From a virus: a stretch of DNA of 32,687 nt. The notes below the pieces were generated by a model. The model made no database searches and was not told the origin of the DNA. It was given only the letters and a program-made list of their open reading frames with translations. Below, one piece after another: positions 434 to 23,933 of this stretch (position 1 is its first letter; each line of letters begins with the position of its first letter). The stretch lies in the IMG/VR virus record IMGVR_UViG_3300045995_000052, positions 1-32,687 of that record; one strand, 5' to 3'. Position numbers and translations under genes: made by a program.

Positions 434-1180
434 ATGGCACAATTAACAAGTAGAGCACAATTAAAAAAGTATTGCTTAGAAAAACTAGGCGAACCAGTAA
501 TTGAAATCAACGTAGCAGATTCTCAGGTAGAATCTAGAATTGATGATGCCATTGAATTCATGGTTGAATACAATTACAATATGATAGAAAAGAAATATCT
601 ATCAATTCAAGTTACTCAACAAATCATTGATGATAATTTCCTAACTGTACCTGAAGAAGTATTGGCAGTATCTCGTATAATGCCTATCAGAAATTCTAGC
701 GTAAATTCATCAAACTACCTATTCGATATTCAATACCACCTAACAGCAAATGATTTATTAAACACTGTTGGTACTGGTGATGTATCATCATACTATATCA
801 CAAAACAACACATTGCAACAATACAAGATGTATTTAATGCTAAATCACAACATGAATTTAGACGTTATACTGATAAGTTACATTTTAAATTTGATGCTGA
901 TGTACGACTATTTGTTGGTGATTACATTGTTTTAGAATGTCATACTCCAATAGAACAAGCTTCTAGATTTTGGAATGATAGATTATTACGCAATTATGCC
1001 ACACAATTGATTAAACGTCAATGGGGTGGAAACTTATCTAAATTCCAAAATGTACAATTGCCTGGCGGTATTATTTTGAATGGTACTGAATTATACAATC
1101 AAGCTCAATTAGAGATTGATAAGATGGAAACAGAGTCTGTTTACCTATATTCAGAACCAGATGAATTAATAATTGGATAG
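434..1180 (+). CDS. gp13: gp13, neck/head completion protein
   Basis: 248 residues, starting at ATG 434. The N-terminus (MAQLTSRAQLKKYCLEKLGEPVI, then a helical IDDAIEFMVEY segment) and the acidic C-terminus fit the gp13 family of T4-like phages as I know it. gp13 with gp14 forms the neck that closes the filled capsid and offers the docking site for the tail. T4 gp13 is 309 aa; the shorter form is typical of marine relatives. Identity is strongly supported by synteny: gp14, gp15, gp16 and gp17 follow in T4 order. A CTAAATA late-type promoter precedes it, and a 79-bp repeat carrying a minus-strand promoter begins four bases after its stop. Confidence 0.85.
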   Translation: MAQLTSRAQLKKYCLEKLGEPVIEINVADSQVESRIDDAIEFMVEYNYNMIEKKYLSIQVTQQIIDDNFLTVPEEVLAVSRIMPIRNSSVNSSNYLFDIQYHLTANDLLNTVGTGDVSSYYITKQHIATIQDVFNAKSQHEFRRYTDKLHFKFDADVRLFVGDYIVLECHTPIEQASRFWNDRLLRNYATQLIKRQWGGNLSKFQNVQLPGGIILNGTELYNQAQLEIDKMETESVYLYSEPDELIIG

Positions 1181-1184
1181 ACAC

Positions 1185-1263
1185 CTTATAAGTACTTATA
1201 AGTATTAATACATTTCAAAGAATGACATTTATTATTATAGCAAAGAAAATGAAATCTGTCAAG
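1185..1263. repeat. 79-bp intergenic repeat, copy 1
   Basis: This element fills most of the gp13-gp14 gap and matches copy 2 (3512-3590) at 76 of 79 positions; the only mismatches are the three bases 1211-1213. It opens with an 18-bp perfect palindrome CTTATAAGTACTTATAAG (1185-1202), which holds two TATAAGTA-like words on the + strand. It closes with a complete sigma70 promoter on the minus strand. A promoter plus a stem-loop between virion genes matches the PeSL (promoter-early stem-loop) cassettes described in RB49-like phages. Just downstream, 1271-1290 is a 10-bp tandem repeat (TTGTAACAGT/TTGTAACAGG). Confidence 0.9.
1234..1262 (-). promoter_or_regulatory. consensus sigma70 promoter on the minus strand (repeat copy 1)
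   Basis: Read on the minus strand: -35 TTGACA (1262-1257), a 17-nt spacer, -10 TATAAT (1239-1234), with TGC before the -10 giving an extended -10. Both hexamers and the spacer are ideal. Transcription would start near 1227 and run leftwards, antisense to gp13. No minus-strand gene is visible there. Confidence 0.8.
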
Positions 1264-1298
1264 AAATAAATTGTAACAGTTTGTAACAGGGGAATATC

Positions 1299-2189
1299 AT
1301 AGCAACTAATCCATATTTTAAATCAAATTTTAGAGGTTCTGGAGAACAGAACTTACTTAATAATTTGACAAGAGAAAGTATACAGCAACAAGGGTATGAT
1401 ATGTATTATATCCCAAGAGAAACTGTTGCCTTAGATTATTTGTTTGGCGAAGATATCCAATCAGCATTTACAGACCCAATTTCGATTGAGTGTTATATTA
1501 AATCTGTTATTGGTTATACTGGTGCTGGTGATGTATTGGCTAAATTTGGATTAGATATCCAAGATGATATGATGATACAAATGCATATACAAAGATTTGA
1601 TGATGAAGTAACTTCAAAATTTCCAGAAATCGGCAGACCTCGTGAGGGTGATTTGATGTATTTTGGATTAGATAAGCATTCTATATTTGAAATATCATTT
1701 GTTGAAAACAAAAAACCATACTATCAATTGGGTTCTATATACATATATGAACTAAGTCTTAAACGCTTTGTATTCAGTGGTGAAAAAATTAATACAGGAA
1801 TTGAAGATATTGATGACATTAATACATATGGGTCTAATGTGAAAATTGAATTAGGAACATCACAATCAATATCAACTAGATATACATTCGGTGAGATAGT
1901 ATATCAATCAACATTAGGTACATTGATAGGTGCTACAGCTACTGGTGAAGTTATTGAACACATCGGTAATACATTAACCCTGCATAGAGTTAGTGGTGAG
2001 TTTAGACAGGGTTTATCTATTAAAGGTGATACATCTCATACAATCTATTCATTCCCAATTAAATCTGATGCTACATTTGATGATACCACTACAGATAAGA
2101 TTGCTGATAATATAAAAGTAAGAACAGAAACTAATACCATATTGGATTTTAATGAAGTTAATCCATTTTTAGATACAGGATATGATTAA
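1299..2189 (+). CDS. gp14: gp14, neck protein, apparently AUA-initiated
   Basis: gp14 joins gp13 in the neck and couples the head to the tail. From 1299 the frame reads ATNPYFK after the first codon, then GEQNLL and YDMYYIPRETVALDYLFGED; the last block matches the conserved YYVPRE...FGED region of gp14, and MATNPYF is the N-terminus I know from marine gp14 proteins. The codon at the Met position is ATA, preceded by AGGGGA (1288-1293) with 5-nt spacing. The first conventional start is TTG 1365, which would remove 22 conserved residues and has no good ribosome binding site. The frame is closed upstream at TAA 1284-1286. From ATA the product is 296 aa (T4: 256). The stop overlaps the gp15 ATG. 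Confidence 0.82.
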   Translation: MATNPYFKSNFRGSGEQNLLNNLTRESIQQQGYDMYYIPRETVALDYLFGEDIQSAFTDPISIECYIKSVIGYTGAGDVLAKFGLDIQDDMMIQMHIQRFDDEVTSKFPEIGRPREGDLMYFGLDKHSIFEISFVENKKPYYQLGSIYIYELSLKRFVFSGEKINTGIEDIDDINTYGSNVKIELGTSQSISTRYTFGEIVYQSTLGTLIGATATGEVIEHIGNTLTLHRVSGEFRQGLSIKGDTSHTIYSFPIKSDATFDDTTTDKIADNIKVRTETNTILDFNEVNPFLDTGYD

Positions 2190-2881
2190 TGTCATTACAC
2201 AATCAACACTTCTATCATGGATTAATCCGTAAGTACGTAGTAGCATTCGGAAATATCTTTAACTCTATTCATATTGTCAGATATGATTTGAATGGTATCG
2301 AAACATTTAGAGAAAAAGTTCCATTAGCCTATGGTCCAAAACAAAAGTACCTATATCGTACAGAACAAAATCCAGACTTAAATGAACGCTTTGCTATCAA
2401 GTTACCTAGAATATCATTTGAGATGGTTGAAATGCGATATGATGCAACCAGAAAAACACCATCGACTAATAAATTGAAGACAGATGTTATTGTTAATCAA
2501 TCAAAAGATTATCAGTATAATGCTGTACCATATGAATTTCTGTTCGATGTTAATATTATGGCTAAAAATACAGAAGATGCTTTACAAATGGTTGAGCAAG
2601 TCGTTCCATTTTTTACTCCAGATTACACAATGACAATTAATGCAATTCCAGATTTAAATATTAAATTGGATATTCCAGTAATCATTAATGCAATTACATC
2701 CGAAGATAATTGGGATACAGGATTCAATGAAAGACGTGATATCGTGTGGAACTTAAGCATGACTCTTAAAGGGTTCTTATATGCTCCAACACGAAAATCT
2801 AAAATTATACTTGAAGCAGATTGGGATATCAGTGGATTTGATAATAATATTATGTCAAGTGGCATAGAAACTACACCCTAA
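2189..2881 (+). CDS. gp15: gp15, tail terminator / sheath stabiliser
   Basis: 230 residues (T4 gp15: 272). The N-terminus HFYHGLIRKYVVAFGNIF, then VPLAYGPKQKYLYR and a KLPRISFEM segment, are hallmarks of the gp15 family, which caps the top of tube and sheath and binds the neck. The ATG overlaps the gp14 stop (TAATG), indicating translational coupling. The order gp13-gp14-gp15-gp16 is as in T4. Confidence is high from motifs and position together. The gene ends within a CTAAATA word (2878-2884) that lies too close to the gp16 start to serve as its late promoter. Confidence 0.87.
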   Translation: MSLHNQHFYHGLIRKYVVAFGNIFNSIHIVRYDLNGIETFREKVPLAYGPKQKYLYRTEQNPDLNERFAIKLPRISFEMVEMRYDATRKTPSTNKLKTDVIVNQSKDYQYNAVPYEFLFDVNIMAKNTEDALQMVEQVVPFFTPDYTMTINAIPDLNIKLDIPVIINAITSEDNWDTGFNERRDIVWNLSMTLKGFLYAPTRKSKIILEADWDISGFDNNIMSSGIETTP

Positions 2882-2888
2882 ATAATAC

Positions 2889-3518
2889 ATGAATAAGAAT
2901 ATTAAAAACTTTATAAGCTCTGTTAGAGCATTGAATATTAATTTAAGACTTTCACCAGACAAAACATTTGTTATATATGAACCACCACTTCCAGTGGATA
3001 TGATTCAAACAGCAATTGATTTAACTGATGATATATGCATTTACTTAGATAATGAATCATTACTGTTATCAGATGAAGATGCTAAAATTATTGATTCATT
3101 AATTGATAGTGAAGATGTATTAGAACACTCTACATTTAAATTAACAAACCCAATTACTAGTGATGAAGAAGAAAATCTTCCAATAGTGTATGAGGAAATG
3201 ACATCAGAATCATTTGACCGAGATTTTGATTTTATCCGCAAGAATCTTAAGGATATTTCTACTAAGGGAACAAAGGCATTAGGGCGAATGATTTCTGTAG
3301 CTCAAGAATCTCAACACCCTAGAGCATATGAAGTTGTAGCAACTTTAATGAAGACTATTGCTGATGTAAATAAAGATTTATTAGATTCTCATATTAAGAA
3401 ACAAGATAAGAGTCCAGTGTCGCCTAATTCTGGAAATACGACTAATGTACAGAACAATACTGTATTTGTTGGTTCAACATCAGAGCTTTCTAAGCTTTTA
3501 GGCAAAAAGAACTTATAA
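2889..3518 (+). CDS. gp16: gp16, small terminase subunit with an extra N-terminal region
   Basis: gp16 forms the ring that recognises DNA and regulates the gp17 packaging motor. Residues about 110-209 carry the family signature: FDFIRKNLKDISTKGTKALG, ESQHPRAYEVVATLMKTI, and a tail with NNTVFVGSTSEL. The first roughly 95 residues are extra compared with T4 gp16 (164 aa): a compact part (residues 1-55, with NINLRL, KTFVIYEPP and a helix) and an acidic linker. No Shine-Dalgarno sequence is visible before ATG 2889, 7 nt after the gp15 stop, so expression probably depends on coupling. The last codons overlap the start of repeat copy 2. Confidence 0.85.
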   Translation: MNKNIKNFISSVRALNINLRLSPDKTFVIYEPPLPVDMIQTAIDLTDDICIYLDNESLLLSDEDAKIIDSLIDSEDVLEHSTFKLTNPITSDEEENLPIVYEEMTSESFDRDFDFIRKNLKDISTKGTKALGRMISVAQESQHPRAYEVVATLMKTIADVNKDLLDSHIKKQDKSPVSPNSGNTTNVQNNTVFVGSTSELSKLLGKKNL

Positions 3519-3590
3519 GTACTTATAAGTATTAATAAGCTTCAAAGAATGACATTTATTATTATAGCAAAGAAAATGAAATCTGTCAAG
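3512..3590. repeat. 79-bp intergenic repeat, copy 2
   Basis: Second copy of the element at 1185-1263 (76/79 identical). It starts inside the last codons of gp16 and ends 28 nt before the terminase-like gene at 3619. Here the palindrome is extended to a perfect 20-mer (3511-3530). On the minus strand the hairpin is followed by TTCTTTTT, so promoter plus hairpin could give a short (about 50-nt) terminated antisense RNA. The two copies bracket gp14-gp15-gp16, with starts 2327 bp apart. Confidence 0.9.
3561..3589 (-). promoter_or_regulatory. consensus sigma70 promoter on the minus strand (repeat copy 2)
   Basis: Minus strand: TTGACA (3589-3584), 17-nt spacer, TATAAT (3566-3561), extended -10 TGC. 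It is identical to the promoter in copy 1. The transcript would run leftwards over the end of gp16. Confidence 0.8.
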
Positions 3591-3618: not shown

Positions 3619-4359
3619 ATGAACATAGAACAATTCCACATAGATGAATATTTAAAATGTAAAGATGACATCGTATACTTTACCGAAAACTATCTAAAAA
3701 CATTTGATAGTGATGGAAAATTAAATCCTATAAAACTGTATCCATATCAAATCGAATTAATGGATAAAGATTTAGTTACAGCTAGAACATCTAGAGCAAT
3801 CGGATTTACAACACTAGCATGTATAAAAATATTACATTCGATAATATTTGAAACAGGAAAGACAATCTTAATATACTCATCAAATAGAGAGATGGGAATA
3901 AACACATTAAGATTTGTTATGGAATTATATGATATGTGTTCATTCGATATAAAACCAGTAGCAAATTTACGAAGTAAAATGCAAGTACAATTTGATAATA
4001 TTAATTATGTATCAGTAATTACATCGACAAATGGTACACGAGGTCAACATATATCAGAATTATATCTACAGGATGTAGATTATATGCAAGAAAATATAGA
4101 GGAAATTATTCATGTAACTTTTCCAACATTATTATCGGGTAGAATTTTACCAAAAATATGGGCATGGTCTAATATCGGTAGGAATGATAATCTAAGTATT
4201 CTTAGAATGTATCTAAAAAATAATATGAAATTTAATCATTATGATTTACCTTGGTACATTATACCAAATAGAGATTCAAAATGGATAAACTCAATGAAAA
4301 ATGTAATGGGTAAAGAATCATTTGATAGAGAGCATAATAACACGTATAGAGCGATTTAA
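3619..4359 (+). CDS. degenerate terminase-ATPase paralogue, nuclease domain absent
   Basis: 246 residues that align throughout with the ATPase half of gp17 just downstream: KCKDDIVYFTENYLK against KCRDDPVYFTRNYIK, YPYQIELM against YDYQEEII, GTRGQHISELYL against AIRGFSISFLYI. The catalytic residues are lost. The Walker A segment RQSGKTT of gp17 is RAIGFTT here (Lys to Phe). The Walker B DE pair of gp17 is Gln151-Asp152. The TST motif III is gone (AWS). The protein stops where the gp17 ATPase domain ends, so no nuclease is present. The frame is intact, with an AAAGGAAA ribosome binding site before ATG 3619, so it looks like a maintained gene rather than debris. A regulatory or structural part of the packaging motor is a reasonable inference. 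Confidence 0.75.
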   Translation: MNIEQFHIDEYLKCKDDIVYFTENYLKTFDSDGKLNPIKLYPYQIELMDKDLVTARTSRAIGFTTLACIKILHSIIFETGKTILIYSSNREMGINTLRFVMELYDMCSFDIKPVANLRSKMQVQFDNINYVSVITSTNGTRGQHISELYLQDVDYMQENIEEIIHVTFPTLLSGRILPKIWAWSNIGRNDNLSILRMYLKNNMKFNHYDLPWYIIPNRDSKWINSMKNVMGKESFDREHNNTYRAI

Positions 4360-4437: not shown

Positions 4438-6129
4438 ATGGCAGTACAAAAGGGATATCTTGGTAATCCTAACTTAAAGAAGTCGGGAACTAATATATCA
4501 TTTACTCCCCACATGGTTGAGGAGTGGACAAAGTGTAGAGATGACCCTGTATATTTCACTAGAAATTATATAAAGATTATCCACGTTGATAAGGGAATGA
4601 TTAACTTCTTACCCTATGATTATCAAGAAGAGATAATTCAAACAGTACATGATAATCGATATAGCATAATTCTTACTGGTAGACAGAGTGGTAAAACCAC
4701 ATCTATTGTAGCATCAATATTACACTATGTAACATTTAATGATGAAAAGACTGTAGCATTACTAGCCAACAAGGGTGATACTGCACGAGAAATTCTAAAC
4801 AGAATTCAGATTGCCTATGAGAATTTACCTGAGTGGCTTCAACATGGTACGATTGAATTTAATAAAGGTTCAATGGTATTAGAGAACAAATGTAGAATCA
4901 TTGCATCATCAACATCATCATCTGCTATTCGTGGATTCTCAATCTCATTTCTATATATCGATGAGTGTGCTTTCGTGGAAAACTGGGATGCATTCTATAA
5001 AGCGGTATATCCAACGATTTCATCTGGTCAAGAAACCAAGATTATATTTACAAGTACTCCAGCTGGCATCAACCACTATCATAAATTATGGAAGGATGCT
5101 GTTGAGGGTCGTTCATCATTTGTACCAATTAAAGTTACATGGAGAGATGTACCTGGTCGAGATGAAGAGTGGAAGAGGGCAACTATTGCCAATACTTCTG
5201 AAGAAGCATTTATACAAGAACATGAAGCTGAGTTTATTGGTTCTGCTGGAACATTAATTGATGGGTGGAGACTAAAAGAATTAGTTGAAGATAATCCAAT
5301 CAAAGCTAATAAATTCCTAAGACAATACAAAGCAGTAGAAGAAAATCACATATACACATTGGTAGCAGATGTATCTCGCGGTAAAGGGATTGATAACTCA
5401 GCATTTATTGTTGTTGATGTATCAACATTACCATATCAAGTAGTAACTACTTACTATTGCGATACAATACCACCAGACATGTTTGCAGAAGTTATATTCC
5501 AAGCTTATAGTTATTATAACAAAGCATTTGTATTAGTAGAGAACAATGATGCTGGATGTGAAACATTACGAGTATTGAACGATACATACGAGTGTGAAAC
5601 AATCTTAGGTATGCAGACAGATGGGCAGGGTAGAAGAATTGTCAGTATCAATGGGGGAACAGCTTTTGAGTTTGGTGTAAGAACAAGTAAAACAGTTAAA
5701 GCTGTAGGTTGTTCTAGAATTAAACAACTAATAGAAACCTATTCATTCTTATTTGGTGACAAGTGGATTATAGATGAGGCTAATAAGTTTATTAGAATCG
5801 GTAAATCATATGAGGCACAGAAAGATGCACATGATGACATTATGATGTGTTGTGTGTTATTTGGATGGCTAACAACTCAATACTTATTTGAAGACCTAAC
5901 TACTATTGATACTAGATTTAGTATGAGAGAACAGTTCGAAACAAGGTTTGAAGAAGAACTATTACCATTCGGGTATGTTTTAGATGGACTAGATACATAT
6001 GGTGATGATAGTGGATTTGAATTTGAATCTATACAGTTACCAGAATATGATGAAGACTTCTTTGAAGATATGGGATTACGAAGAGATAAAGTAAAAGAAT
6101 CTTTTGATTTCTTTATGGATATTCGATAA
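4438..6129 (+). CDS. gp17: gp17, large terminase subunit (packaging ATPase and nuclease)
   Basis: gp17 cuts concatemeric DNA and pumps it through the portal into the prohead. In this 563-aa protein (T4: 610) the N-terminal ATPase has Walker A GRQSGKTT (81-88), Walker B FLYIDE (171-176) and coupling motif TST (205-207). The C-terminal RNase H-fold nuclease keeps the acidic triad: Asp311 in LVADVSRG, Glu368 in VLVENND, and Asp466/467 in DAHDDIM. All key residues are intact, in contrast to the neighbour at 3619. The start at ATG 4438 has only a weak AATAGG upstream. The C-terminal 90 residues are strongly acidic. gp55 follows after a new promoter. Confidence 0.96.
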   Translation: MAVQKGYLGNPNLKKSGTNISFTPHMVEEWTKCRDDPVYFTRNYIKIIHVDKGMINFLPYDYQEEIIQTVHDNRYSIILTGRQSGKTTSIVASILHYVTFNDEKTVALLANKGDTAREILNRIQIAYENLPEWLQHGTIEFNKGSMVLENKCRIIASSTSSSAIRGFSISFLYIDECAFVENWDAFYKAVYPTISSGQETKIIFTSTPAGINHYHKLWKDAVEGRSSFVPIKVTWRDVPGRDEEWKRATIANTSEEAFIQEHEAEFIGSAGTLIDGWRLKELVEDNPIKANKFLRQYKAVEENHIYTLVADVSRGKGIDNSAFIVVDVSTLPYQVVTTYYCDTIPPDMFAEVIFQAYSYYNKAFVLVENNDAGCETLRVLNDTYECETILGMQTDGQGRRIVSINGGTAFEFGVRTSKTVKAVGCSRIKQLIETYSFLFGDKWIIDEANKFIRIGKSYEAQKDAHDDIMMCCVLFGWLTTQYLFEDLTTIDTRFSMREQFETRFEEELLPFGYVLDGLDTYGDDSGFEFESIQLPEYDEDFFEDMGLRRDKVKESFDFFMDIR

Positions 6130-6188: not shown

Positions 6189-6821
6189 TTGACTAAATTA
6201 AAAAAATCAACAATCATCAGTGAAACATCTGATAAACCAATAACAAAAACTTCCGCACACTATGTATCGAATCCAGATTTATATAATGAATTTGTATTAT
6301 GGAAAGCTACTCGTGTATTAGCTGAAGCTGATGGGTTAGAAGAACCAGCTATACCAGAAAAAATTGGTAAAGGTATTATGCAGATTGCTAATAACTTTAT
6401 CAAAAAGTATAATTGGCAATCAAATACCAAATGGAAAGATGAGATGGTTGGGGATGCAATATTAAATTGTATCTTGTATGTACGAAATTTTGACCCAGAC
6501 AAATCTAAGAACCCATTTTCATATTTTACTCAGACTTGTTATTATGCATTCCTTCGTAGAATTGAAAAAGAGAAGGAAGAGGATTATGTCAAGCATAAAT
6601 CAACACTTAATTCATTGGTATTTCAAGAGATACAAAATGGTAATATAGATGAAGATGAATTAGTATTAGAAGATTTTGATTATAATGCATCAGGTGTAGA
6701 AGATTTCATATCAGGTTTTGAGATTAAGAAGTTTGGTAAAGCATTAGATTCAAATGAAATTGGTGGTAGTGGTGGCAAGACAAAACGATTAGATTTAATG
6801 GATGATGTAGGATTTTTATAA
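6189..6821 (+). CDS. gp55: gp55, late-transcription sigma factor
   Basis: gp55 replaces the host sigma on RNA polymerase and directs it to late promoters, activated by the gp45 clamp. The 210-aa product (T4: 185) has the sigma region 2-like core at residues 80-130: KWKDEMVGDAILNC, YVRNFDPDKSKNPFSYFTQ and AFLRRIEKEK. The C-terminus ends in LMDDVGFL, which could be a hydrophobic clamp-binding tail as in T4 gp55 (inference). The start is TTG 6189 with AAAAGG (6176-6181) at good spacing. A sigma70-type promoter directly upstream suggests early/middle expression, fitting a factor that then switches on the CTAAATA promoters seen in this window. Confidence 0.92.
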   Translation: MTKLKKSTIISETSDKPITKTSAHYVSNPDLYNEFVLWKATRVLAEADGLEEPAIPEKIGKGIMQIANNFIKKYNWQSNTKWKDEMVGDAILNCILYVRNFDPDKSKNPFSYFTQTCYYAFLRRIEKEKEEDYVKHKSTLNSLVFQEIQNGNIDEDELVLEDFDYNASGVEDFISGFEIKKFGKALDSNEIGGSGGKTKRLDLMDDVGFL

Positions 6822-6845
6822 TAAACAATTGAGAGGGATTATATA

Positions 6846-7907
6846 ATGAAGATTGCCAAAATTGGTGATATACATTTTGGAATTAGGCAGGGGTCGGAGA
6901 TATATCAGGAAAATATTAAATTATTTTTTAAGAATGTATTCTTCCCTGCATTAAAACAATATGGAGTAACTAGAGTATTACAAACTGGGGATATGTTTGA
7001 TACTCGTAAACAAACACATTCACAAGCATTATACAATGCTAAAGATTGCTTCTTTGATGAATTGCTATATGAGCACATCGATATGGATATGATTTTAGGT
7101 AATCATGATATATATTATCGTGAAAGTCTAGAAATCAATACACCAAATCTTGTACTAGATGAATATAAAAATATAAAAGTACATGATAGACCACAAACAA
7201 TTTCAATCGATGGTGTTGCTATTGATATGATTCCTTGGATTTGTGAGCAAAATTATTCAGATGTATTTGATTTTATTAATAAATCTAAATCTGAATACTG
7301 TATGGCACATCTAGAACTTGCTGGATTTGAGATGTCTAAAGGTCATATGTGTGAACATGGTATGGATGCATCACTGTTTAAACGATATAAACAAGTATGG
7401 TCTGGTCACTTCCATAGACAATCTAAGAGTGGAAATATACATTATCTAGGTTCACCATCACAACATACATTTGATGACGTTGGTGATATTAGAGGATTCT
7501 ATATATTTGATACAGAAACTCATGAAGATATTTTCATACCAAATCCATATAACCTGTTTGAACGAATTGAATATGATGAAGATGCAGTTTTCAAATTGCA
7601 TGATATATCTAACAAATATGTTAAGGTAATCATCAACAATGCAAAAGATTCAAAAAAATTAGAAAAGTATATTGAATCATTATGGATACAAAATCCAGTA
7701 GATATTAAGACTGTAGATAATATGGTGTTAGCTGAGTCAGCTGAATATGATATTACGATGGAAGCACTTGAACAAGGTAGTTTTGAGATTGTACCATTCT
7801 TAACTGAGTATACAGTAAATCTAAATGAATCATTAACAGACTATCAGAAACAACTAGTTTCAGACACATACAAACTGTTATATACTATGAGTAAAGAGGA
7901 AGAATAA
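6846..7907 (+). CDS. gp47: gp47, SbcD/Mre11-like recombination nuclease subunit
   Basis: 353 residues (T4: 339). The calcineurin-like phosphoesterase motifs are complete: Asp8 and His10 in GDIHFG, Asp49 in QTGDMFD, Asn86-His87-Asp88 in GNHD, His155, and His188/His190 in SGHFH. With gp46 it resects double-strand ends for recombination-dependent replication. The gene starts at ATG 6846 behind GAGAGGG, and gp46 begins 4 nt after its stop, so the two subunits should be made together. The order 47-46 is as in T4. Confidence 0.95.
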   Translation: MKIAKIGDIHFGIRQGSEIYQENIKLFFKNVFFPALKQYGVTRVLQTGDMFDTRKQTHSQALYNAKDCFFDELLYEHIDMDMILGNHDIYYRESLEINTPNLVLDEYKNIKVHDRPQTISIDGVAIDMIPWICEQNYSDVFDFINKSKSEYCMAHLELAGFEMSKGHMCEHGMDASLFKRYKQVWSGHFHRQSKSGNIHYLGSPSQHTFDDVGDIRGFYIFDTETHEDIFIPNPYNLFERIEYDEDAVFKLHDISNKYVKVIINNAKDSKKLEKYIESLWIQNPVDIKTVDNMVLAESAEYDITMEALEQGSFEIVPFLTEYTVNLNESLTDYQKQLVSDTYKLLYTMSKEEE

Positions 7908-7911
7908 TATT

Positions 7912-9618
7912 ATGTTTATAAAGTTATTAAGTGTATCTGCTAAGAATTTCATGAGTATTGGTAATACTCCAATAGAATTAGATTTAACAAAACACACTAA
8001 GTCATTGATTATAGGTAAGAATGGTAATGGTAAATCTGTATTAATTGAAGCAATTATATTTGCATTGTATGGCAAACCATATAGAAAAATTAATAAAGGT
8101 GCATTAGTAAATTCTATCAATGGTAAGGGATGTGAAGTTATAGTAAAATTCCAAGTCAACGATAAGCAATATAAAATTGTTAGAACAATTAAACCAGATA
8201 GTTTGAAAATTTATGCCAATGATGTATTGATTGAGCAACTAGCAAGTGTGGGTGATTATCAAGAGATGTTGGAAACAACAATTCTTAAGATGGATTACAG
8301 TACATGTTGCCAGATGGTTATTATTGGTTCTATGGGTTACATTCCATTCCTACAGCTTAAGTCAGCAGATAGAAGATTATTCGTAGAATCTGTATTGGAT
8401 TTACAACTGTTTTCTGATATGAATAAGAAATTAAAGACAATTCATGCAGAAGAAAAAACAAAATATACAACATCACAGAATGCTATTAATGTTTATAAGT
8501 CGAAAATTGATTCATATGAAGGTGTTATAAGAACACTTGAGGCTGATAAAGGTGTAAAAATCTTAGCAATTGATGAATCCATTAGAGAGAAGATGGAAGA
8601 GTATAAAAAATATATCGGATTAGCAGAGCAAGCGCAAAAAGATATTGATGGCGTTACAGGATTAACCGTTACAACAGATATACAAAGAGATATTAATACA
8701 GCATCATCTGAAATATCAACAGCACAAACAGAAAATACTAAGCTGAATAATAAGATTAAATTCTTTGATGTTACAGCTGAGTGTGCATCATGTGGACAGA
8801 TTATTGATGCAAACCATAAAGAAAAACATATTACAATGTGGAATGAAACAATTTCATATAACAATAATATAATAAAAGAAAAAACAGAACAGAACATTGC
8901 ACGTAGTCTGATTGTCAAACAAGCTCAAGAGAAAGATAGAGAGTTAGCAACTAAAAGACAAAATCTAAAGACTAATCAAGATAGTGCTGAGTGGATAAAG
9001 AAAGATATTGTTAGATTGGGTAAAGAGAAGCAAACATTAGGCACTACGGATGATGGTGCATTGTCTGATGCTAAGAAAAAATTAGAAGATAATATAAATT
9101 TACATGCAGATGAAGTAATAACATCAAAAGAGTTCTTTACAAATATCCAAGTATATGATACAATGCTAACAGCATTAAAAGATAGTGAAGCAAAAGCAGA
9201 AATAGTCAAACAGTACATCCCATTGATTAATTTAACAGTTAATCAGTATATGGATAAATTAGGTTTATATATTAAATTTGAATTGGATGAAAATTTTAAT
9301 GAAACACTCAAATCAAGACATCGTGACGATTTTACCTACGAATCATTCTCTATGGGGGAAAGGATGCGTATCGACTCCTCCTTGTTATTTGCTTGGAGGG
9401 AAATTACGAAAAAGAGAACAGGAATCGAAACAAATTTACTCTTCTTTGACGAAGTTTTGGAAATTCTAGATGATGAGGGTTTTGATGTTATCTTGGGTGT
9501 AGTTGATTCAATACCAAATATGAACTGTTTTATTATTTCTCATAAACAAAATCTAGATGTTAAATTTGATAACATTATTGAGATGATTAAGGTTCAAGAT
9601 TTTACGCAAATTAAGTAG
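7912..9618 (+). CDS. gp46: gp46, SbcC/Rad50-like recombination ATPase subunit
   Basis: 568 residues (T4: 560). Walker A GKNGNGKS (35-42) opens the N-terminal ABC half. A coiled-coil middle contains the zinc hook CASC (291-294). The C-terminal half has the ABC signature SFSMGERMRID (478-488) and Walker B LLFFDEV (509-515) followed by a D-loop-like EILDDEG. Together with gp47 it forms the end-processing complex at the start of strand invasion by UvsX. All parts expected of a working SMC-type ATPase are present. Confidence 0.96.
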   Translation: MFIKLLSVSAKNFMSIGNTPIELDLTKHTKSLIIGKNGNGKSVLIEAIIFALYGKPYRKINKGALVNSINGKGCEVIVKFQVNDKQYKIVRTIKPDSLKIYANDVLIEQLASVGDYQEMLETTILKMDYSTCCQMVIIGSMGYIPFLQLKSADRRLFVESVLDLQLFSDMNKKLKTIHAEEKTKYTTSQNAINVYKSKIDSYEGVIRTLEADKGVKILAIDESIREKMEEYKKYIGLAEQAQKDIDGVTGLTVTTDIQRDINTASSEISTAQTENTKLNNKIKFFDVTAECASCGQIIDANHKEKHITMWNETISYNNNIIKEKTEQNIARSLIVKQAQEKDRELATKRQNLKTNQDSAEWIKKDIVRLGKEKQTLGTTDDGALSDAKKKLEDNINLHADEVITSKEFFTNIQVYDTMLTALKDSEAKAEIVKQYIPLINLTVNQYMDKLGLYIKFELDENFNETLKSRHRDDFTYESFSMGERMRIDSSLLFAWREITKKRTGIETNLLFFDEVLEILDDEGFDVILGVVDSIPNMNCFIISHKQNLDVKFDNIIEMIKVQDFTQIK

Positions 9619-9648
9619 TACATTTTATAATTAAATAGGAGTTTTATA

Positions 9649-10335
9649 ATGAAGTTATCACAAAAAACAATTGATATTTTTAAATATTTTAGTAGCTTGT
9701 CACCAAGTATCTTGATTCGTGAAGGTAATATCTTACGTACACGCAATCAAGCTAAAACAATTGCAACAAAAGCTGAATTGACGGAATCATTCCCAAAAGA
9801 GTTTATCATTTACTCTATTCCAGAATTCTTAAAAACAATCAACTTGTTTAATGAACCAGATATTGAGTTCTTAGATACACATATGATTATTACTGAAGGT
9901 GCTTTAAAGGTTCGCTACATGTATGCAGACCCAATCTTATATCAAAATGCACCAGAAGATAAAGATTATGTTCCTACAAACATTACATGGGGTATGATTG
10001 TTAAGTTGGATAAAACTGAATTAACTAATATTCAAAAAGCATCGGGTGTATTGAATCTAAACACTGTATCATTTACTGAAAGTGGTATCGTAGTTTACTC
10101 AGATAAGAATAAAGATTCTAATAACTTTAAGATGAACTATTCAACTGAATTAGAATTTAGTGGCGAAAAACCAGATACATTTGAAATCAATTTCCCATCA
10201 GCAAACTTAAATTTATTTGAGGGTGATTATGTTGCAGATTTCTTCTGTTCTAAACGTACAGGTGTTAAATTGACAAATGAAGTTGATGGTGTATCAGTAT
10301 GGTTGGCAGCAAACCCATCATCGAATGTAGGATAA
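9649..10335 (+). CDS. gp45: gp45, sliding clamp
   Basis: 228 residues, exactly the T4 gp45 length range. The N-terminus MKLSQKTIDIFKYFSSLSPSILIREGN is characteristic of T4-like clamps, and the C-terminus (VWLAANPSSN) also fits. The trimeric ring tethers gp43 and also activates late transcription through gp55, so it links the two systems encoded here. It has one of the best ribosome binding sites in the window (TAGGAG before ATG 9649), in keeping with a protein needed in quantity. gp44 follows after 4 nt. Confidence 0.95.
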   Translation: MKLSQKTIDIFKYFSSLSPSILIREGNILRTRNQAKTIATKAELTESFPKEFIIYSIPEFLKTINLFNEPDIEFLDTHMIITEGALKVRYMYADPILYQNAPEDKDYVPTNITWGMIVKLDKTELTNIQKASGVLNLNTVSFTESGIVVYSDKNKDSNNFKMNYSTELEFSGEKPDTFEINFPSANLNLFEGDYVADFFCSKRTGVKLTNEVDGVSVWLAANPSSNVG

Positions 10336-10339
10336 TATC

Positions 10340-11269
10340 ATGAATGTAAATGATTACTTATTAACCGAGAAGTATCGTCCACAGACAATTGATGAATGTA
10401 TTTTGCCTGATAGTACACGAGCAACATTAGAAAGCTTTGTTGTTAATGGTAAAATTCCTAATCTATTATTCTGTGGCTCTGCTGGTATCGGTAAAACAAC
10501 AGTAGCCCATGCATTGGGTCGTCAACTAGGATATGATGTATTGTTTGTCAATGCATCAAATGAAGGTCGTTCTATTGATACACTACGAGGTCTTATTACA
10601 GACTTTGCTAGTTCGATGTCACTGTATGCCAATCACAAATTAGTTATCTTAGATGAGTTTGATGGTACAGGTGCTGTTGTTCAGGATGCTCTACGAGCAT
10701 TTGTTGAGTTATATTCAGGAACATGTTCATTTATTTTGACATGTAATTATAAACACAAGTTGATAGATGCAATTCACTCTAGATTCTCTGAGGTAAATTT
10801 CAGCATTCCAGCTGACCAGAAATCTAAAGTTGCAGTAGCATTCATGAAACGTGTTGTGGCAATTCTAGAGAAAGAAAATATTACCTTTGATAAGACAGCA
10901 GTAGCTGAATTGGTTAAGAAATATTTTCCAGACTTCCGTAGAACATTGACAGAGTTACAACGATATACATCAGATGGTACATTTACAATTGAAGAACTGA
11001 AGAATCTAGATTTGGATGTTAATGGTATTATTGCATTAATAAAAGATAAGAAATTTAGTGAGATGATTACAGCTGTAGAGAAATCATCTACAATTGATAT
11101 TACAGCAGTAGCTAATGAGTTGTATGATAATGCGGATAAGTTCTGTGATGCAAATAACAAACCAGTATTGATTAAAATCTTATCGGATTATATTGATAAA
11201 GGTACTAGAACTACAAATCCAAAGATTACAATTATGGCTATGTATGCTGAGATAATGGCGAATATTTAA
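10340..11269 (+). CDS. gp44: gp44, clamp-loader large subunit (AAA+ ATPase)
   Basis: 309 residues (T4: 319). It has the clamp-loader N-terminus LLTEKYRPQTIDECILP, Walker A GSAGIGKT (46-53), Walker B VILDEFD (102-108) and an SRF motif (147-149) in the place of the SRC arginine-finger motif. Four gp44 subunits with one gp62 load the gp45 ring at primer ends. It lies between gp45 and gp62 exactly as in T4, with a 2-nt gap to gp62. Confidence 0.96.
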   Translation: MNVNDYLLTEKYRPQTIDECILPDSTRATLESFVVNGKIPNLLFCGSAGIGKTTVAHALGRQLGYDVLFVNASNEGRSIDTLRGLITDFASSMSLYANHKLVILDEFDGTGAVVQDALRAFVELYSGTCSFILTCNYKHKLIDAIHSRFSEVNFSIPADQKSKVAVAFMKRVVAILEKENITFDKTAVAELVKKYFPDFRRTLTELQRYTSDGTFTIEELKNLDLDVNGIIALIKDKKFSEMITAVEKSSTIDITAVANELYDNADKFCDANNKPVLIKILSDYIDKGTRTTNPKITIMAMYAEIMANI

Positions 11270-11271
11270 TT

Positions 11272-11658
11272 ATGGCTACTTTATTTGATTATGTTGGTAC
11301 AATCAATAATAAAGTAGGCGTAATGCCTATGGATAACATTGATGAATTTAACTCTGTATATGTACAGTATGTTGTTAACATGGCATTTTGTAGATATACT
11401 GAAACAATTATGTTAGTAGATGAATTAGTCTTAATGAATAATTTAACAAATCTTCAACATTTTGATTACTTGTTTAATACAGTTCCTCAAGGTAAACGAT
11501 ATTCTAAATGGAATAAAGCAGACAAAAATTTGGAACTAGATACTATAGTAAGAATATATAATTATTCTTACGATAAGGCTAAACAAGTAGTTGATTTATT
11601 TCAACCAGATGATTTAGAAAAATTAAAAGAAAGACTATTTCAGGGTGGGAAAGAATGA
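11272..11658 (+). CDS. gp62: gp62, clamp-loader small subunit (short form)
   Basis: 128 residues, against 187 in T4; compact versions are usual in marine T4-like phages. Identification rests on position between gp44 and regA, on the N-terminus TLFDYVGTIN, and on the segment FNTVPQGKRYSKWNK, which resembles conserved gp62 sequence. It has no ATPase motif, as expected for a subunit that only completes the loader pentamer. The stop overlaps the regA ATG (ATGA). Confidence 0.8.
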   Translation: MATLFDYVGTINNKVGVMPMDNIDEFNSVYVQYVVNMAFCRYTETIMLVDELVLMNNLTNLQHFDYLFNTVPQGKRYSKWNKADKNLELDTIVRIYNYSYDKAKQVVDLFQPDDLEKLKERLFQGGKE

Positions 11659-12164
11659 TGGTAAAAAGATTATTAGAATCTGTACAGGTTCGAGATAATA
11701 CGACAAATGAAGTATATTATGAAATTGATAGATTAGAGCGTGATGAGTTAGTTTCAACATTTGTTGAAATCAATCCAATTGGTTCGGATGATTTTTTAAA
11801 AGTTAAAGAAACATTGACACGAGTTGGAATTGCTAATCGGGTTAAAAAAGAGATATACCAAAGTTGTCATGTATTACATAAAAAGGGTCATTACTTTATT
11901 GTACTATTTAAAGAGATGTTTGCTATAGATGGTAGAGAAACAGAAATGACTGAAGATGATTATATAAGAAGAAATTATATAGCAAAATTATTAGAGAATT
12001 GGGGATTGATTAAAATCATTAATACTGATATAATGTACAAAGTAGTAGAAGAACTACCTATCTCTGTATATGTATTACCGTATAAAGATAAAAAACAATG
12101 GCAACTTAAACCCAAATATCAAATTGGAACAATCAAGGAAGGTAATAAGAATGGAAACAAGTAA
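11655..12164 (+). CDS. regA: RegA translational repressor with N-terminal extension
   Basis: RegA binds the start regions of early mRNAs, including clamp and clamp-loader genes in T4, and blocks translation. Residues 44-169 match T4 RegA closely: DDFLKVKETLTRVGIAN, YQSCHVLHKKGHYFIV, FKEMFAIDGRETEMTEDD, ENWGLI, and the C-terminal QWQLKPKYQIGTI. T4 RegA is 122 aa; this one is 169 because about 38 extra charged residues precede the RegA fold. No ATG, GTG or TTG occurs in frame near the T4-equivalent start, so the extension seems real. The ATG overlaps the gp62 stop, implying coupling. Confidence 0.92.
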   Translation: MMVKRLLESVQVRDNTTNEVYYEIDRLERDELVSTFVEINPIGSDDFLKVKETLTRVGIANRVKKEIYQSCHVLHKKGHYFIVLFKEMFAIDGRETEMTEDDYIRRNYIAKLLENWGLIKIINTDIMYKVVEELPISVYVLPYKDKKQWQLKPKYQIGTIKEGNKNGNK

Positions 12165-12468
12165 TTTAAGTATTCTAGTATTAAAGTTATCATCAGGTGA
12201 GGTTGTAATTTCAAAAGTACAAGAAGACCAAACAGGTAATATGGCACTAATTAAACCATATGAGTTCTTATCTAAAACAGATGCAAAAGGTAATGTTACT
12301 GGTGGATTTCTACCATTCATGCCATTAGCATTAGATGGATTCATTCAATTGGTACAACGTCCAGTAGCAGTAGCTACACCAGATGAACAATCTGCAAACA
12401 CATATATGAAATTAATTGGTGATAAAGTAATTGAAACACCACCAAAAAATCTTATAATTCCAAAATAA
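12151..12468 (+). CDS. Sm-like small protein
   Basis: 105 residues from ATG 12151, chosen because AAGGAAGG (12136-12143) lies at proper spacing; an earlier in-frame ATG at 12070 is inside regA and has no ribosome binding site. The start of the protein (LKLSSGEVVISKV, then a hydrophobic ALIKPYEF segment and a GFLPFMPLA segment) resembles the Sm-like beta-barrel proteins that marine T4-like phages often carry. An RNA-binding role beside RegA would be plausible but is inference. It overlaps the end of regA by 14 nt. Confidence 0.6.
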   Translation: METSNLSILVLKLSSGEVVISKVQEDQTGNMALIKPYEFLSKTDAKGNVTGGFLPFMPLALDGFIQLVQRPVAVATPDEQSANTYMKLIGDKVIETPPKNLIIPK

Positions 12469-12483
12469 GGAAAAATATTTATT

Positions 12484-12837
12484 ATGATAGTAAGTAAATT
12501 TGACGTAACATCTTCGGTGTTTAGTGACACATTCAGTAAAGCTTGTAGTGTAGATTGGAGTGAAGATGAGAATAAAATCACATTCGGCATTCCAAATACA
12601 AATAAATGCTATAAAGATTTATTGTTAGTTGCCCTTGATACTCGTTCTAAGATTAATTTTGTAATTGATATCTACACACAGATTAAAATTAAGCATGTAT
12701 TAGTACAGCAGTATAATATCGGAGCATTACCATTACGAGTTTATCGGGATAGTTTGTTGCAGAATTCTGATAAGGAATCACTACTCCACATATCATTTAA
12801 AATTGTATCTTCTGAGGTATCATTATTAAATGATTAA
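12484..12837 (+). CDS. conserved-looking unknown protein upstream of gp43
   Basis: 117 residues I do not recognise. It has no signal peptide, membrane segment or cysteine motif. It is a mixed alpha/beta sequence with a hydrophobic middle (DLLLVALDTRSKINFVIDIY) and a C-terminal HISFKIVSSEVSLL strand-like stretch. It sits between the Sm-like gene and DNA polymerase, overlapping the gp43 start by 8 nt, so it is co-translated with the replisome genes. That position suggests, but does not show, a replication-linked role. Confidence 0.6.
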   Translation: MIVSKFDVTSSVFSDTFSKACSVDWSEDENKITFGIPNTNKCYKDLLLVALDTRSKINFVIDIYTQIKIKHVLVQQYNIGALPLRVYRDSLLQNSDKESLLHISFKIVSSEVSLLND

Positions 12838-15397
12838 ACCATATTATACCTCATTTTTTAGACGTGGTAATAGAGTATATATTCGTAGAATTGAAAATGA
12901 TGGTACTAGAACAAACTATCATGTAGCATATAAACCAAAACTATACATTAAACATGAATCTCCAAACTGTGATTTTAAAACATTGGATGGAGATGAATTG
13001 TATGAGATTGAGTTTAGTGATATCAAGTCTGCTAAAGAATATGCTGATGCATCAACTGCGAAGATGTTTGGATATCCTCGTTGGGAATATGCTTGTGCAG
13101 ATGATGAATTTCCATATGAGATTGAATATAAATTTGATGATTTGCGATTAGGTTTTATCGATATTGAGGTAGAATCTGATACCCATTATTCATCAGTAAA
13201 AAACCCAGACCAACCGATTGTATTGATTCAAATTCTATACAACAAAGTTATATACATTTTAGGCACAGATTTCTATCAGTCATATGATGATAAAGTTAAA
13301 TTCATTCGATGTAAGGATGAAGTTGACCTATTAAAGAAATTTGTCATACTTGTTCGTAAATTTGATTTTGATATTATATCAGGATTTCATAGTCAAGGCT
13401 ATGATATTCCAATGCTTCATGAGCGTATGAAGTTGATAGGTATGGAAGATTACTTTAAGAAATTATCACCATTTGGTTTTATCGATACATCAGAAGTTGA
13501 AGTGTTTGGTAAAATGGAATTACGTGTTGATATCAAAGGTATACAGCATCTAGATATTTTAGAGTTAATCAAGAAATTTGATACTAAGAAATATGAGAAT
13601 AATAAATTAGATACAATTGCTAAATCGATATTGAAACGCGGTAAAGTTGCCTATGATGGTAAACTATCAGATTTAATGGTAACAGATTATGCCAAGTTTG
13701 TAGAATATGGTATGGTCGATGTAGACTTGTTGCAAGATATTGAAAACATTAAAAACCTAATTAAGATGGTAGTTAATGTGGCATACATGGATAAATGTAA
13801 TTTTATTGATGCATTCTCACAAGTTCGTATGTGGGATAATCAAATTATGACATTCCTTAAGCATGAGTATCAAGTACAAGTTCCATATCTAATTGCAAAT
13901 GAATTTGTAGAATCAGATGATGAGAAGTTTGAAGGTGCATTCGTATATGAACCAAACCCAAATAGATATGAATGGGTTATGTCAGACGATGTACAATCAA
14001 TGCACCCATCCATTATTATGGCATTTAATGTATCACCAGAAACATATCTAGGTAATGCTAATAAGAATGTTGAGTTCTTTTTGCAAGATTGCCCTCAGTT
14101 TACTAGAGAGATTATGGATAATAATGCTACAACAATGGCAAATGGTGCTATGTTTGATAACACTTATGAGGGATTTTTGCCTAAATTAGTACGTAGAGTA
14201 TTTAATATGCGTATTGAAGCTAAGAATAAAGCAAAAATTCATAAGAAAGAAGCTGAGAAGTTGGAAAAAGTATTAGCAGAATCACCAGATAATGCTGATG
14301 TTAAACTAGAATTGCAAATGAATCGTAATGAGTTTGTACGATTTGATACAATCCAGAGTGCTCTTAAAGTTAAGATTAACTCTATGTTTGGATTCTTGGG
14401 TAATAAGTATTCTAGATTCTATCAGTTGGATATGGCTGAAGGTATTACATTAACTAGTCAGGTAATGTTAAAATCTGGAGCAGAAGAGATTACAACAGTA
14501 ATACAAGAGTTATTGGGAAATAAAGATAATGTTTTATTATATGGGGATACAGATTCGCTATTATATAGTATGGAAGGTATCGTTAATAAGTTTATACCAA
14601 AAGATACACCAAAAGATAAAATAGTAGAATTTTTAGATAGATTACATAAGTCTAAAATTGCACCAAGATTGGCAAGTAAGTTAGAAGTAGTTCAGAACCG
14701 AATGAATGCTCGTGAGCACTCAATACGCTTCGTTAGAGATGTTATTTCTGATGTTAGTATACTGATAGCCAAAAAGAAATATATCATGAGTGTGATGGAT
14801 TCTGAGGGTGTAAGATATTCAGAACCAGACTTGAAAATCATGGGTGTGGAATCAGTTAAAACATCAACTCCACAATACTGTAGAGATAGGATTAAAGAAG
14901 CTATTAGTGTCATATTGTATAAGACTAATGATGACCTGTTTTCTTATATAAATAAAACTAAGAAGCAGTTCTTAGCATTACCAGTAGAAGATATATCGTC
15001 ACCAAGAGGTATATCAGATATTGAGAAGTATACAGCTGATTCAGTTACTGATGATGTATTTGGTGATGATGGAGTTGAAAAGTCTATAACATTTAAAAAT
15101 AGATGTCCAATGCATGTTAAGGCATCTATATACCATAACAAATTAATTATGGATAATGATATGACAAAATGGTATCAACCGATATCGAATGGTGATAAGA
15201 TTAAGTTTACATATTTAAAGACACCAAATCCAATCAAGAACAATGCAATTGCATTTGATGGTATATTACCACCAGAGTTTGGGTTACATAAGTATGTAGA
15301 TTTTGAAATGCAATGGACTAAGACATTCTATAATCCAGTAAAAGCTATTACTGATACTATAGGGTGGAAAATTGAAGAATCAAATGAGATGTTTTAA
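12830..15397 (+). CDS. gp43: gp43, family B DNA polymerase
   Basis: 855 residues (T4: 898), the replicative polymerase with proofreading. Exonuclease motifs: Asp111/Glu113 in FIDIEVE, Asp192 in GFHSQGYDIP, and Tyr293/Asp297 in YGMVD. Polymerase motif A is DVQSMHPSII with Asp387; motif B is KVKINSMFG (513-521); motif C is YGDTDS (571-576). Two family positions differ: the steric-gate Tyr of SLYPS is His392, and the Tyr of NSxYG is Phe520. The exo II Asn is also His. All metal-binding acidic residues are present, so it should be active. It starts inside the upstream gene and is followed by uvsX after 14 nt. Confidence 0.97.
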   Translation: MIKPYYTSFFRRGNRVYIRRIENDGTRTNYHVAYKPKLYIKHESPNCDFKTLDGDELYEIEFSDIKSAKEYADASTAKMFGYPRWEYACADDEFPYEIEYKFDDLRLGFIDIEVESDTHYSSVKNPDQPIVLIQILYNKVIYILGTDFYQSYDDKVKFIRCKDEVDLLKKFVILVRKFDFDIISGFHSQGYDIPMLHERMKLIGMEDYFKKLSPFGFIDTSEVEVFGKMELRVDIKGIQHLDILELIKKFDTKKYENNKLDTIAKSILKRGKVAYDGKLSDLMVTDYAKFVEYGMVDVDLLQDIENIKNLIKMVVNVAYMDKCNFIDAFSQVRMWDNQIMTFLKHEYQVQVPYLIANEFVESDDEKFEGAFVYEPNPNRYEWVMSDDVQSMHPSIIMAFNVSPETYLGNANKNVEFFLQDCPQFTREIMDNNATTMANGAMFDNTYEGFLPKLVRRVFNMRIEAKNKAKIHKKEAEKLEKVLAESPDNADVKLELQMNRNEFVRFDTIQSALKVKINSMFGFLGNKYSRFYQLDMAEGITLTSQVMLKSGAEEITTVIQELLGNKDNVLLYGDTDSLLYSMEGIVNKFIPKDTPKDKIVEFLDRLHKSKIAPRLASKLEVVQNRMNAREHSIRFVRDVISDVSILIAKKKYIMSVMDSEGVRYSEPDLKIMGVESVKTSTPQYCRDRIKEAISVILYKTNDDLFSYINKTKKQFLALPVEDISSPRGISDIEKYTADSVTDDVFGDDGVEKSITFKNRCPMHVKASIYHNKLIMDNDMTKWYQPISNGDKIKFTYLKTPNPIKNNAIAFDGILPPEFGLHKYVDFEMQWTKTFYNPVKAITDTIGWKIEESNEMF

Positions 15398-15411
15398 TAA
15401 AAGGAAAAAAT

Positions 15412-16473
15412 ATGAATGAATTAATGAAAAGAATTTCTAAAGTTGGTGTAAAAGCTGTAGCATTGAGCAAATCTGAAATCTATCAGGATAGAGATATTAC
15501 AACAACAAGTGTACCATCTATTAACATTGCATTGAGTGGTGAGATTGATGGTGGGTTTGGTTCTGGTGTAGGTATTCTAGCTGGACCATCTAAGCATTAC
15601 AAATCAAATACAGGTTTAATCTTGGTATCAGATTATCTAAAGAAATACGAAGATGCATTCTGTTTATTCTATGATTCGGAATTTGGTTCACCACCAGATT
15701 ACTGGGATACACAAGGTATTGATTCTTCTAGAGTTTTACATGTACCAATTGCAAATATTGAGGATATCAAATTTGATTTACCACAAAAGTTAGAAAGTAT
15801 TAATCGTGGTGATAAGGTTATTATTTTTGTTGACTCAGTTGGCAATCTTCCATCTAAAAAAGAGGTTGGTGATGCCCTAGATGGTAAATCAACAACAGAT
15901 ATGACACGAGCAAGAGAAATGAAATCTATGTTCCGTATCATTACACCAATGATTAAGATGCGTAATCTTCCAGCATTGTTTGTAGCACATACCTATCAGA
16001 CTATGGAATTATATAGTAAGTCTGTTGTATCGGGTGGTACAGGTTTGTATTACTCAGCTGATTGGATTATTATTTTTGGTAGACAACAAGAGAAAGATGC
16101 TGATAAAGAATTAGCAGGTTGGAACTTTATTCTTAATACAGAGAAATCTAGATTCGTTAAAGAAAAAACTAAGATTCCATTGACAGTATTGTTTGATAGT
16201 GGTATTAGTAAGTATTCAGGTATTCTAGACTTGGCATTAGAGTCTGGTGATGTAGTTAAACCTAAAAATGGATACTATGCACTAGTAGATAGAGCTACTG
16301 GCGAAGTGGGTAAAGAAGTTAAATTTCCAAAAACACAAGCAGATGATTTCTTGGGTGTAGTATTAGCTAGAGAAGAATTCAAGCAGTTCATTAAAGATAC
16401 TTATAAATTATCTAAAGCTAAACTAGAAGAAGATGATATATTTGGTGATGAAGATATTCCTGTTGATGATTAA
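15412..16473 (+). CDS. uvsX: UvsX, RecA-like recombinase
   Basis: 353 residues (T4: 391). The Walker A is GPSKHYKSN (58-66), the same non-standard form as T4 UvsX, with Lys-Ser kept. Further blocks are FYDSEFGSP, VIIFVDSVGNLPSKKE (Walker B), and FVAHTYQTMELYSKSVVSGGTGLYYSAD (loop L2 region). The C-terminus is acidic, as expected. UvsX performs strand invasion for recombination-dependent replication, using ends made by gp46/47. The ribosome binding site AAAAGGAAA precedes ATG 15412. A sigma70-type promoter begins within its last codons. Confidence 0.96.
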   Translation: MNELMKRISKVGVKAVALSKSEIYQDRDITTTSVPSINIALSGEIDGGFGSGVGILAGPSKHYKSNTGLILVSDYLKKYEDAFCLFYDSEFGSPPDYWDTQGIDSSRVLHVPIANIEDIKFDLPQKLESINRGDKVIIFVDSVGNLPSKKEVGDALDGKSTTDMTRAREMKSMFRIITPMIKMRNLPALFVAHTYQTMELYSKSVVSGGTGLYYSADWIIIFGRQQEKDADKELAGWNFILNTEKSRFVKEKTKIPLTVLFDSGISKYSGILDLALESGDVVKPKNGYYALVDRATGEVGKEVKFPKTQADDFLGVVLAREEFKQFIKDTYKLSKAKLEEDDIFGDEDIPVDD

Positions 16474-16491
16474 TATTAACTGTGGTATAAT
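16463..16491 (+). promoter_or_regulatory. second sigma70-type promoter
   Basis: TTGATG (16463-16468), 17-nt spacer, TATAAT (16486-16491) with TGG before it (extended -10). It shares TGTGGTATAATG with the gp55 promoter and lies 27 nt before ATG 16518. It would drive the helicase region independently of the 6135 promoter. Confidence 0.7.
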
Positions 16492-16517
16492 GATGTTTTA
16501 AATATTGGAGAGAGACT

Positions 16518-16859
16518 ATGGGATTTACTAATGATTTTGGAATTTCTGGAATGAATTTTAATGTAGAAAGTGTAATGGCATCGATTCATGATGAAGCACC
16601 AACAGAACACATTGAATTCACACCACTAGAAGGTGAGATGGTTGGTCTTAAATTTATCATCGGTGAATTTAAGCTAACAGATAAGACCTATGATAATGGT
16701 GATGGTGAGGTTACATTTAATACATCATTCCTAGATAAGACAGATGCAGAAAATACAGAATTAATGGAAAAGTATATTGAAGAAATTAAAACCATTGCAC
16801 ATGTATTGATTAAAAATGCATTTGATTCTGCAATAGAGAATAAGAAATATGAATCTTAG
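16518..16859 (+). CDS. unknown acidic protein downstream of uvsX
   Basis: 113 residues; not recognised. It is acidic, with a glycine-containing N-terminus (GFTNDFGISGMNF), a probable beta-rich middle (LKFIIGEFKLTDKTY) and a C-terminal helical part rich in Glu and Lys. It has no cysteine motif or membrane segment. GGAGAG (16507-16512) gives a good ribosome binding site. It is the first gene after the 16463 promoter and overlaps the next small gene by 11 nt. Confidence 0.65.
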   Translation: MGFTNDFGISGMNFNVESVMASIHDEAPTEHIEFTPLEGEMVGLKFIIGEFKLTDKTYDNGDGEVTFNTSFLDKTDAENTELMEKYIEEIKTIAHVLIKNAFDSAIENKKYES

Positions 16860-16998
16860 TTATGTAATAATGACTATAATGTGGATGGCTGGAATAGTAT
16901 ATGCTAAAGGTTGGTTAATATTTATAGCATGTATATTTCCACCATACGCATGGTATCTTGTGGTTGAGCATGTCATGAGAGCAATGAATTTAATATAA
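16849..16998 (+). CDS. small two-helix membrane protein (49 aa)
   Basis: ATG 16849 lies inside the end of the preceding gene in another frame and the stop is TAA 16996-16998. The 49-aa product has two hydrophobic segments, YVIMTIMWMAGIVYA and WLIFIACIFPPYAWYLVV, split by a short KG turn, and ends in a basic/polar tail. Small proteins with a FPPYxWYLVVE-like second helix are familiar to me from marine T4-like phages beside helicase genes, without known function. An inner-membrane location is likely. Confidence 0.65.
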   Translation: MNLSYVIMTIMWMAGIVYAKGWLIFIACIFPPYAWYLVVEHVMRAMNLI

Positions 16999-17013
16999 TG
17001 ATAAAGGATTTAA

Positions 17014-18414: not shown

Positions 18415-18416
18415 TA

Positions 18417-18423
18417 CTAAATA
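18417..18423 (+). promoter_or_regulatory. putative late promoter (CTAAATA)
   Basis: CTAAATA lies 35 nt before ATG 18452, in the 37-nt gap after gp41. Its spacing is the same as at gp13 and the RuvC-like gene. It may start a late unit leading to the spanins. Confidence 0.5.
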
Positions 18424-18451
18424 TAATACAAAGATTAATAAAGGATTTAGT

Positions 18452-18709: not shown

Positions 18710-18726
18710 TATTATTAAGAAATGAG

Positions 18727-20027: not shown

Positions 20028-20034
20028 AGTCAAT

Positions 20035-20110: not shown

Positions 20111-20116
20111 GAATAT

Positions 20117-20192: not shown

Positions 20193-20212
20193 AATTTTTA
20201 TTATGAGGTACT

Positions 20213-23921: not shown

Positions 23922-23933
23922 AATCTTAATATC

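Follow-up and report, generated by a model that had tools for sequence, protein, structure and literature searches.

The window analysed here is a 32,687-nt fragment of an uncultured virus, a T4-like phage, and constitutes the entire record. According to PHROGs, its left part encodes gp13 (head-tail adaptor; positions 434–1180, plus strand), gp14, gp15, gp16 (terminase small subunit; 2889–3518, plus strand), a 246-aa gp17-like protein and gp17, which are followed by gp55, gp47, gp46, the sliding clamp and clamp loader (gp45/44/62) and a RegA-like translation repressor. DNA polymerase (gp43), UvsX, helicase (gp41), primase (gp61), NrdB, NrdA, PhoH and a RuvC-like resolvase come next, and tail sheath and portal come after the resolvase. 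Every gene placed by PHROGs lies on the plus strand. The genes of the contig are not all virion genes, as a replication module lies between gp17 and gp18. The whole module occupies 6189–25420 on the same strand, an arrangement unlike that in the viewed regions of Melnitz and phiM12.

The 246-aa gp17-like protein (3619–4359), located between gp16 and gp17, shares 24% identity with the N-terminal ATPase part of gp17. Its Walker A motif is altered (SRAIGFTT versus GRQSGKTT) and the acidic residues of Walker B are changed too, and it is likely, as judged from its residues, an inactive paralog of the terminase ATPase. The gp17.2 of Sinorhizobium phage phiM12 occupies the same place and is similar (27% over 159 aa), with GKTT retained, while no relatives of the gp17-like protein were found in IMG/VR.

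The repeat pair and its minus-strand promoters

Self-comparison of the 32.7-kb contig identifies two copies of a 79-bp repeat (1185–1263 and 3512–3590, neither assigned to a strand), which are 96% identical (E = 1.9e-33) and differ solely in one block of three adjacent bases (CAT versus AGC), confirming the pair with three adjacent mismatches that an earlier note on this DNA had reported. Copy 1 lies between gp13 and gp14, while copy 2 extends from the last codon of gp16 toward the gp17-like gene. The palindrome of copy 2 gives gp16 its last codon and stop (TTA TAA), and the C-terminus of gp16 reads GKKNL in the window versus KGK in relatives. The placement of both promoters between virion genes, as previously described, holds for copy 1 but is too simple for copy 2, which supplies the end of gp16 and adjoins the degenerate gp17-like paralog. 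An assembly artefact is judged unlikely, because the gp13-gp14-gp15-gp16 order matches that of relatives and the two copies are not identical.

Each copy contains on the minus strand an exact sigma70 motif, TTGACA-17-TATAAT with an extended -10 (1234–1262 in copy 1 and 3561–3589 in copy 2), where 12/12 hexamer bases match, the spacer is 17 nt and TG stands ahead of the -10 box. These are the only sites with 0 mismatches to TTGACA-17-TATAAT on both strands of the entire window, which bears out the earlier claim of two perfect promoters. The number of exact sites expected by chance, calculated from 610 random windows of first-order Markov composition, is 0.043 per window, or 0.007 if the extended -10 is required; since the two sites are copies, they represent one chance event and one duplication, not two independent events.

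Behind neither promoter is there a minus-strand ORF with a credible start; the antisense ORFs within about 600 nt are no longer than 66 aa, in agreement with the earlier observation that no minus-strand gene is seen. The short leaderless peptide at the predicted start (MSFFEMY/MSFFEAY) is too short to carry weight. A search of IMG/VR for the hexamers plus AATAAATG retrieved 31 loci, most of which have an ORF no more than about 300 nt downstream and which served only as a guide to the usual targets of such promoters; as this promoter type mostly precedes an ORF, a promoter without a gene fits gene loss. An exact sigma70 promoter works without any phage factor, as is established for T4 early transcription, and the two promoters, if used, would therefore act directly upon infection.

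The other end of the repeat is an 18-bp perfect palindrome, CTTATAAGTACTTATAAG (1185–1202 in copy 1 and 3512–3529 in copy 2, no strand), which is built of two CTTATAAGTA units, giving two 10-bp units per repeat copy. In minus-strand RNA it would form a hairpin of weak energy (-4.1 and -4.7 kcal/mol in the two copies). A T-run stands behind the hairpin in copy 2 only, where the RNA would go on into TTCTTTTT and be terminator-like, albeit weak. The terminator scan did not call the hairpin in either copy, the repeat stretch folds no better than shuffles, and an Rfam search of the element gave no match.

Similarity between the copies breaks off sharply at either edge, one edge lying just beyond the -35 box and the other at the palindrome, and the copied unit, read on the minus strand, therefore consists of a promoter, a transcribed stretch of about 43 nt and a hairpin. 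The predicted short transcripts of the minus strand span 1185–1227 in copy 1, provided that the RNA halts at the hairpin and starts 7 nt past the -10 box, and 3504–3554 in copy 2, including the T-run, as deduced from the promoter position. Upon read-through, promoters 1 and 2 would deliver RNA antisense to gp13 and gp16, respectively.

The pair might be a neutral recent duplication, in which a stretch between genes, holding a good promoter, was duplicated through illegitimate recombination and serves no function. The single block of three changes, the sharp ends and the lack of conservation in relatives are consistent with this explanation, but the copied unit coincides with promoter plus palindrome and neither promoter deviates from the consensus, something not required of a random duplicate, and we consider it rather unlikely.

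The two junctions in related phages

Two close relatives were found, the IMG/VR contigs L005 and L006, neither of which reaches far; both have gp13 to gp16, with gp15 identities of 72% and 71%, respectively, and scans of genome contigs for further relatives returned none. The gp13/gp14 junction of the window (1181–1298, no strand), which holds copy 1, is 118 nt long, whereas the gap between the two genes is 1–2 nt in L005 and L006, 1 nt in T4, 6 nt in Melnitz and 11 nt in phiM12, and the genes overlap in S-CAM3. As this junction is tight in relatives, copy 1 is therefore part of an insertion.

The repeat element is absent from L005 and L006, and searches of the contig, of IMG/VR and of 50,697 phage records found no further copy, which leaves the earlier reading without support from additional copies or from conservation. 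The exact 29-mer promoter core has zero matches in IMG/VR, and blastn of the junction against phages gave weak AT-rich matches only. A 23-mer of the palindrome end has one IMG/VR match, inside the coding region of an unrelated contig, which was taken as chance. All copy counts for this phage apply to the fragment.

The gp16/gp17 junction is a described insertion hot-spot in T4-like cyanophages (PMC3037559, PMC2984593), and insertions at this place are also present in S-CAM3, P-TIM68 and Melnitz. L006 contains an intact 84-aa minus-strand ORF (7327–7581) immediately after gp16, for which no relatives were found in Pfam or the phage collection, while L005 contains a broken remnant of this ORF (5437–5532; 63% identity over 32 aa), followed by stops and frame breaks. 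Upstream of the remnant, within the gp16/gp17 junction of L005, is a minus-strand promoter (TTGCTA-17-TATAAT with TG; 5742–5714), which scores among the best in its contig, where no other reaches 10/12 together with TG. The earlier note had named, besides a lack of minus-strand transcripts, the absence of further copies or of conserved promoter hexamers as evidence against its reading; only half of this applies, since L005 too has a minus-strand promoter at gp16/gp17, though of a different sequence and with none at gp13/gp14.

In the window, no trace of the 84-aa minus-strand gene was detected, and no detectable sequence is shared by the window cassette and the promoter region of L005, the promoter regions being unalignable. 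The minus-strand unit of L006 and L005 and that of the window are alike in junction and strand, with a sigma70-type promoter also in L005, but differ in that the window has no such gene left and its promoter sequence cannot be aligned. We infer that a minus-strand early unit at gp16/gp17 may be a feature of this small group, with the gene intact in L006, broken in L005 and absent from the window. It is also possible that the window cassette arrived independently, or that three independent events took place.

Possible roles of the predicted minus-strand RNA

The repeat may be a dedicated antisense or small-RNA element, although the probability of this is low. Its RNA would be complementary to late mRNA at the gp13/gp14 and gp16/gp17 junctions and would restrain virion genes early, both in cis and, by virtue of the repeat, from one copy to the other. 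The exact promoters oppose late genes with no minus-strand ORF behind them, and the copies are near-identical, so each RNA would be able to pair with both junctions. An antisense RNA, CfrI, has been proven in the T4-like cyanophage S-PM2 (PMC2984593). It is likewise a minus-strand RNA opposing genes of a T4-like phage, but it is about 225 nt long and runs counter to psbA and to the gene of a homing endonuclease, whereas the RNA of the window is a prediction. Points against the antisense element are its lack of conservation in L005 and L006 and of other copies, a structure no better than shuffles, and the trans-target search, in which nothing for the 43-nt RNA exceeded shuffles. Late genes depend on gp55 anyway, and early silencing would therefore have little to do.

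A transcript-primed replication origin, where RNA from a counter-oriented early promoter within the virion genes would prime DNA synthesis in an AT-rich stretch with short iterons (CTTATAAGTA twice), is very unlikely. Its model is T4 oriE, which shows apparent early-promoter dependence and contains 12-nt iterons (PMC3016281), and the window is comparable in that an early promoter sits close to late virion genes, in AT-rich DNA with short iterons. The repeat sites rank in the least stable 0.2–0.7% of 50-bp windows and are near the replication module. However, some nine separate sites elsewhere are no more stable than these, each copy has just two iteron units, the window has no repE-like ORF (repEA/repEB in T4), and the element is not conserved. 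The compositional skew shift of an oriE-like site is absent at the repeats, where third-position GC skew, which tracks early versus late genes, has no clear flip. Replication genes mostly have a strongly positive skew of this kind, whereas for most virion genes it is close to zero or negative. Also quite improbable is a duplicated early RNA module without a gene, in which both copies of the promoter/hairpin unit would make the same minus-strand RNA at two junctions of the late operon and so provide paired antisense brakes (or transcript-primed starts) to be overcome before gp55-dependent late transcription.

Likeness to PeSL cassettes and proposed origin of the repeat

PeSL cassettes are reportedly known from RB49/phi1 and other T4-like phages, in work ascribed to Arbiol (2010) and Comeau (2014). 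According to one account (PMC4503421), a PeSL comprises a strong sigma70-like promoter and a stem-loop terminator, and occurs in many copies and in hyperplastic regions. The window cassette is likewise small and repeated, contains a strong sigma70-type promoter in both copies (12/12, extended -10) together with a stem-loop, and has one copy in a hyperplastic junction. It differs in that the promoter is ahead of the hairpin on the transcribed strand, the hairpin is weak, no known gene is driven, the neighbouring early gene being absent behind both promoters, and the 32.7-kb fragment shows just two copies, of which one occupies the gp16/gp17 hot-spot and the other does not; between them lie only essential virion genes and no other gene module. 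The element is thus described as PeSL-like, with membership in PeSL not established, because the promoter is present but the adjacent early gene is missing, the hairpin is weak and has no T-run in copy 1, and the fragment has two copies. From the PeSL interpretation proposed before, the compact duplicated promoter/palindrome unit and its copy in a hyperplastic junction stand, while further copies and conservation are not supported, and the weak hairpin, with a T-run in copy 2 only, may not be an effective terminator. The proposed gp14-gp15-gp16 mini-circle agrees in size (2327 bp), but its excision would remove essential genes.

With roughly even confidence, the repeat is provisionally identified as a PeSL-like promoter/stem-loop cassette that stayed behind in the hot-spot as minus-strand early genes came and went, and that was copied into gp13/gp14. 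Copy 2 would be a leftover of, or an import with, the gain and loss of minus-strand early genes at gp16/gp17, and copy 1 its later duplicate, placed between gp13 and gp14; this direction of copying is suggested because copy 2 occupies the hot-spot, while the junction that holds copy 1 is normally tight. The window may then represent the final stage of a series, where the gene is gone, the promoter cassette remains and a second copy sits at gp13/gp14. The sigma70 RNA polymerase of the host would start from both promoters as soon as the cell is infected, and the minus-strand RNA would either stop partially at the weak hairpin or run antisense into gp16 and gp13, giving an early antisense phase that would last until gp55-directed late transcription. 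Such antisense RNA would be a side effect, tolerated or of slight use, rather than what gave rise to the cassette. Decay is expected of a pure relic, yet neither promoter has lost its exact match, perhaps because the duplication is recent. The arrangement is unusual, but probably no new kind of system. If the cassette is mobile, a promoter module departs from a known hot-spot and lodges between two genes otherwise kept tight.

The motif CTAAATA, whose T4 counterpart is TATAAATA, stands before genes at 398, 2878, 18417, 23934, 24834, 25434 and 28116; in L005 it likewise precedes gp16 and the gene on the gp17 side. Nine of the ten occurrences in the window are on the plus strand; of these nine, five fall in the 5% that is intergenic and another two are no further than 35 nt from a start. 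It looks like the late promoter of this phage, a reading based on strand and placement, since the total count is not above chance in the window. The TATAAGTA within the palindrome was rejected as a T4-type late promoter, because the late-type motif upstream of virion genes looks like CTAAATA, which occurs in neither repeat.

The apparent start of gp14 is ATA (1299–1301) behind AGGGGA, whereas relatives begin with ATG. Homology of gp14 runs from the codon after ATA, with an in-frame stop at 1284 and no ATG, GTG or TTG before residue 23, and the ATA seems to be either a true rare start or a base error.
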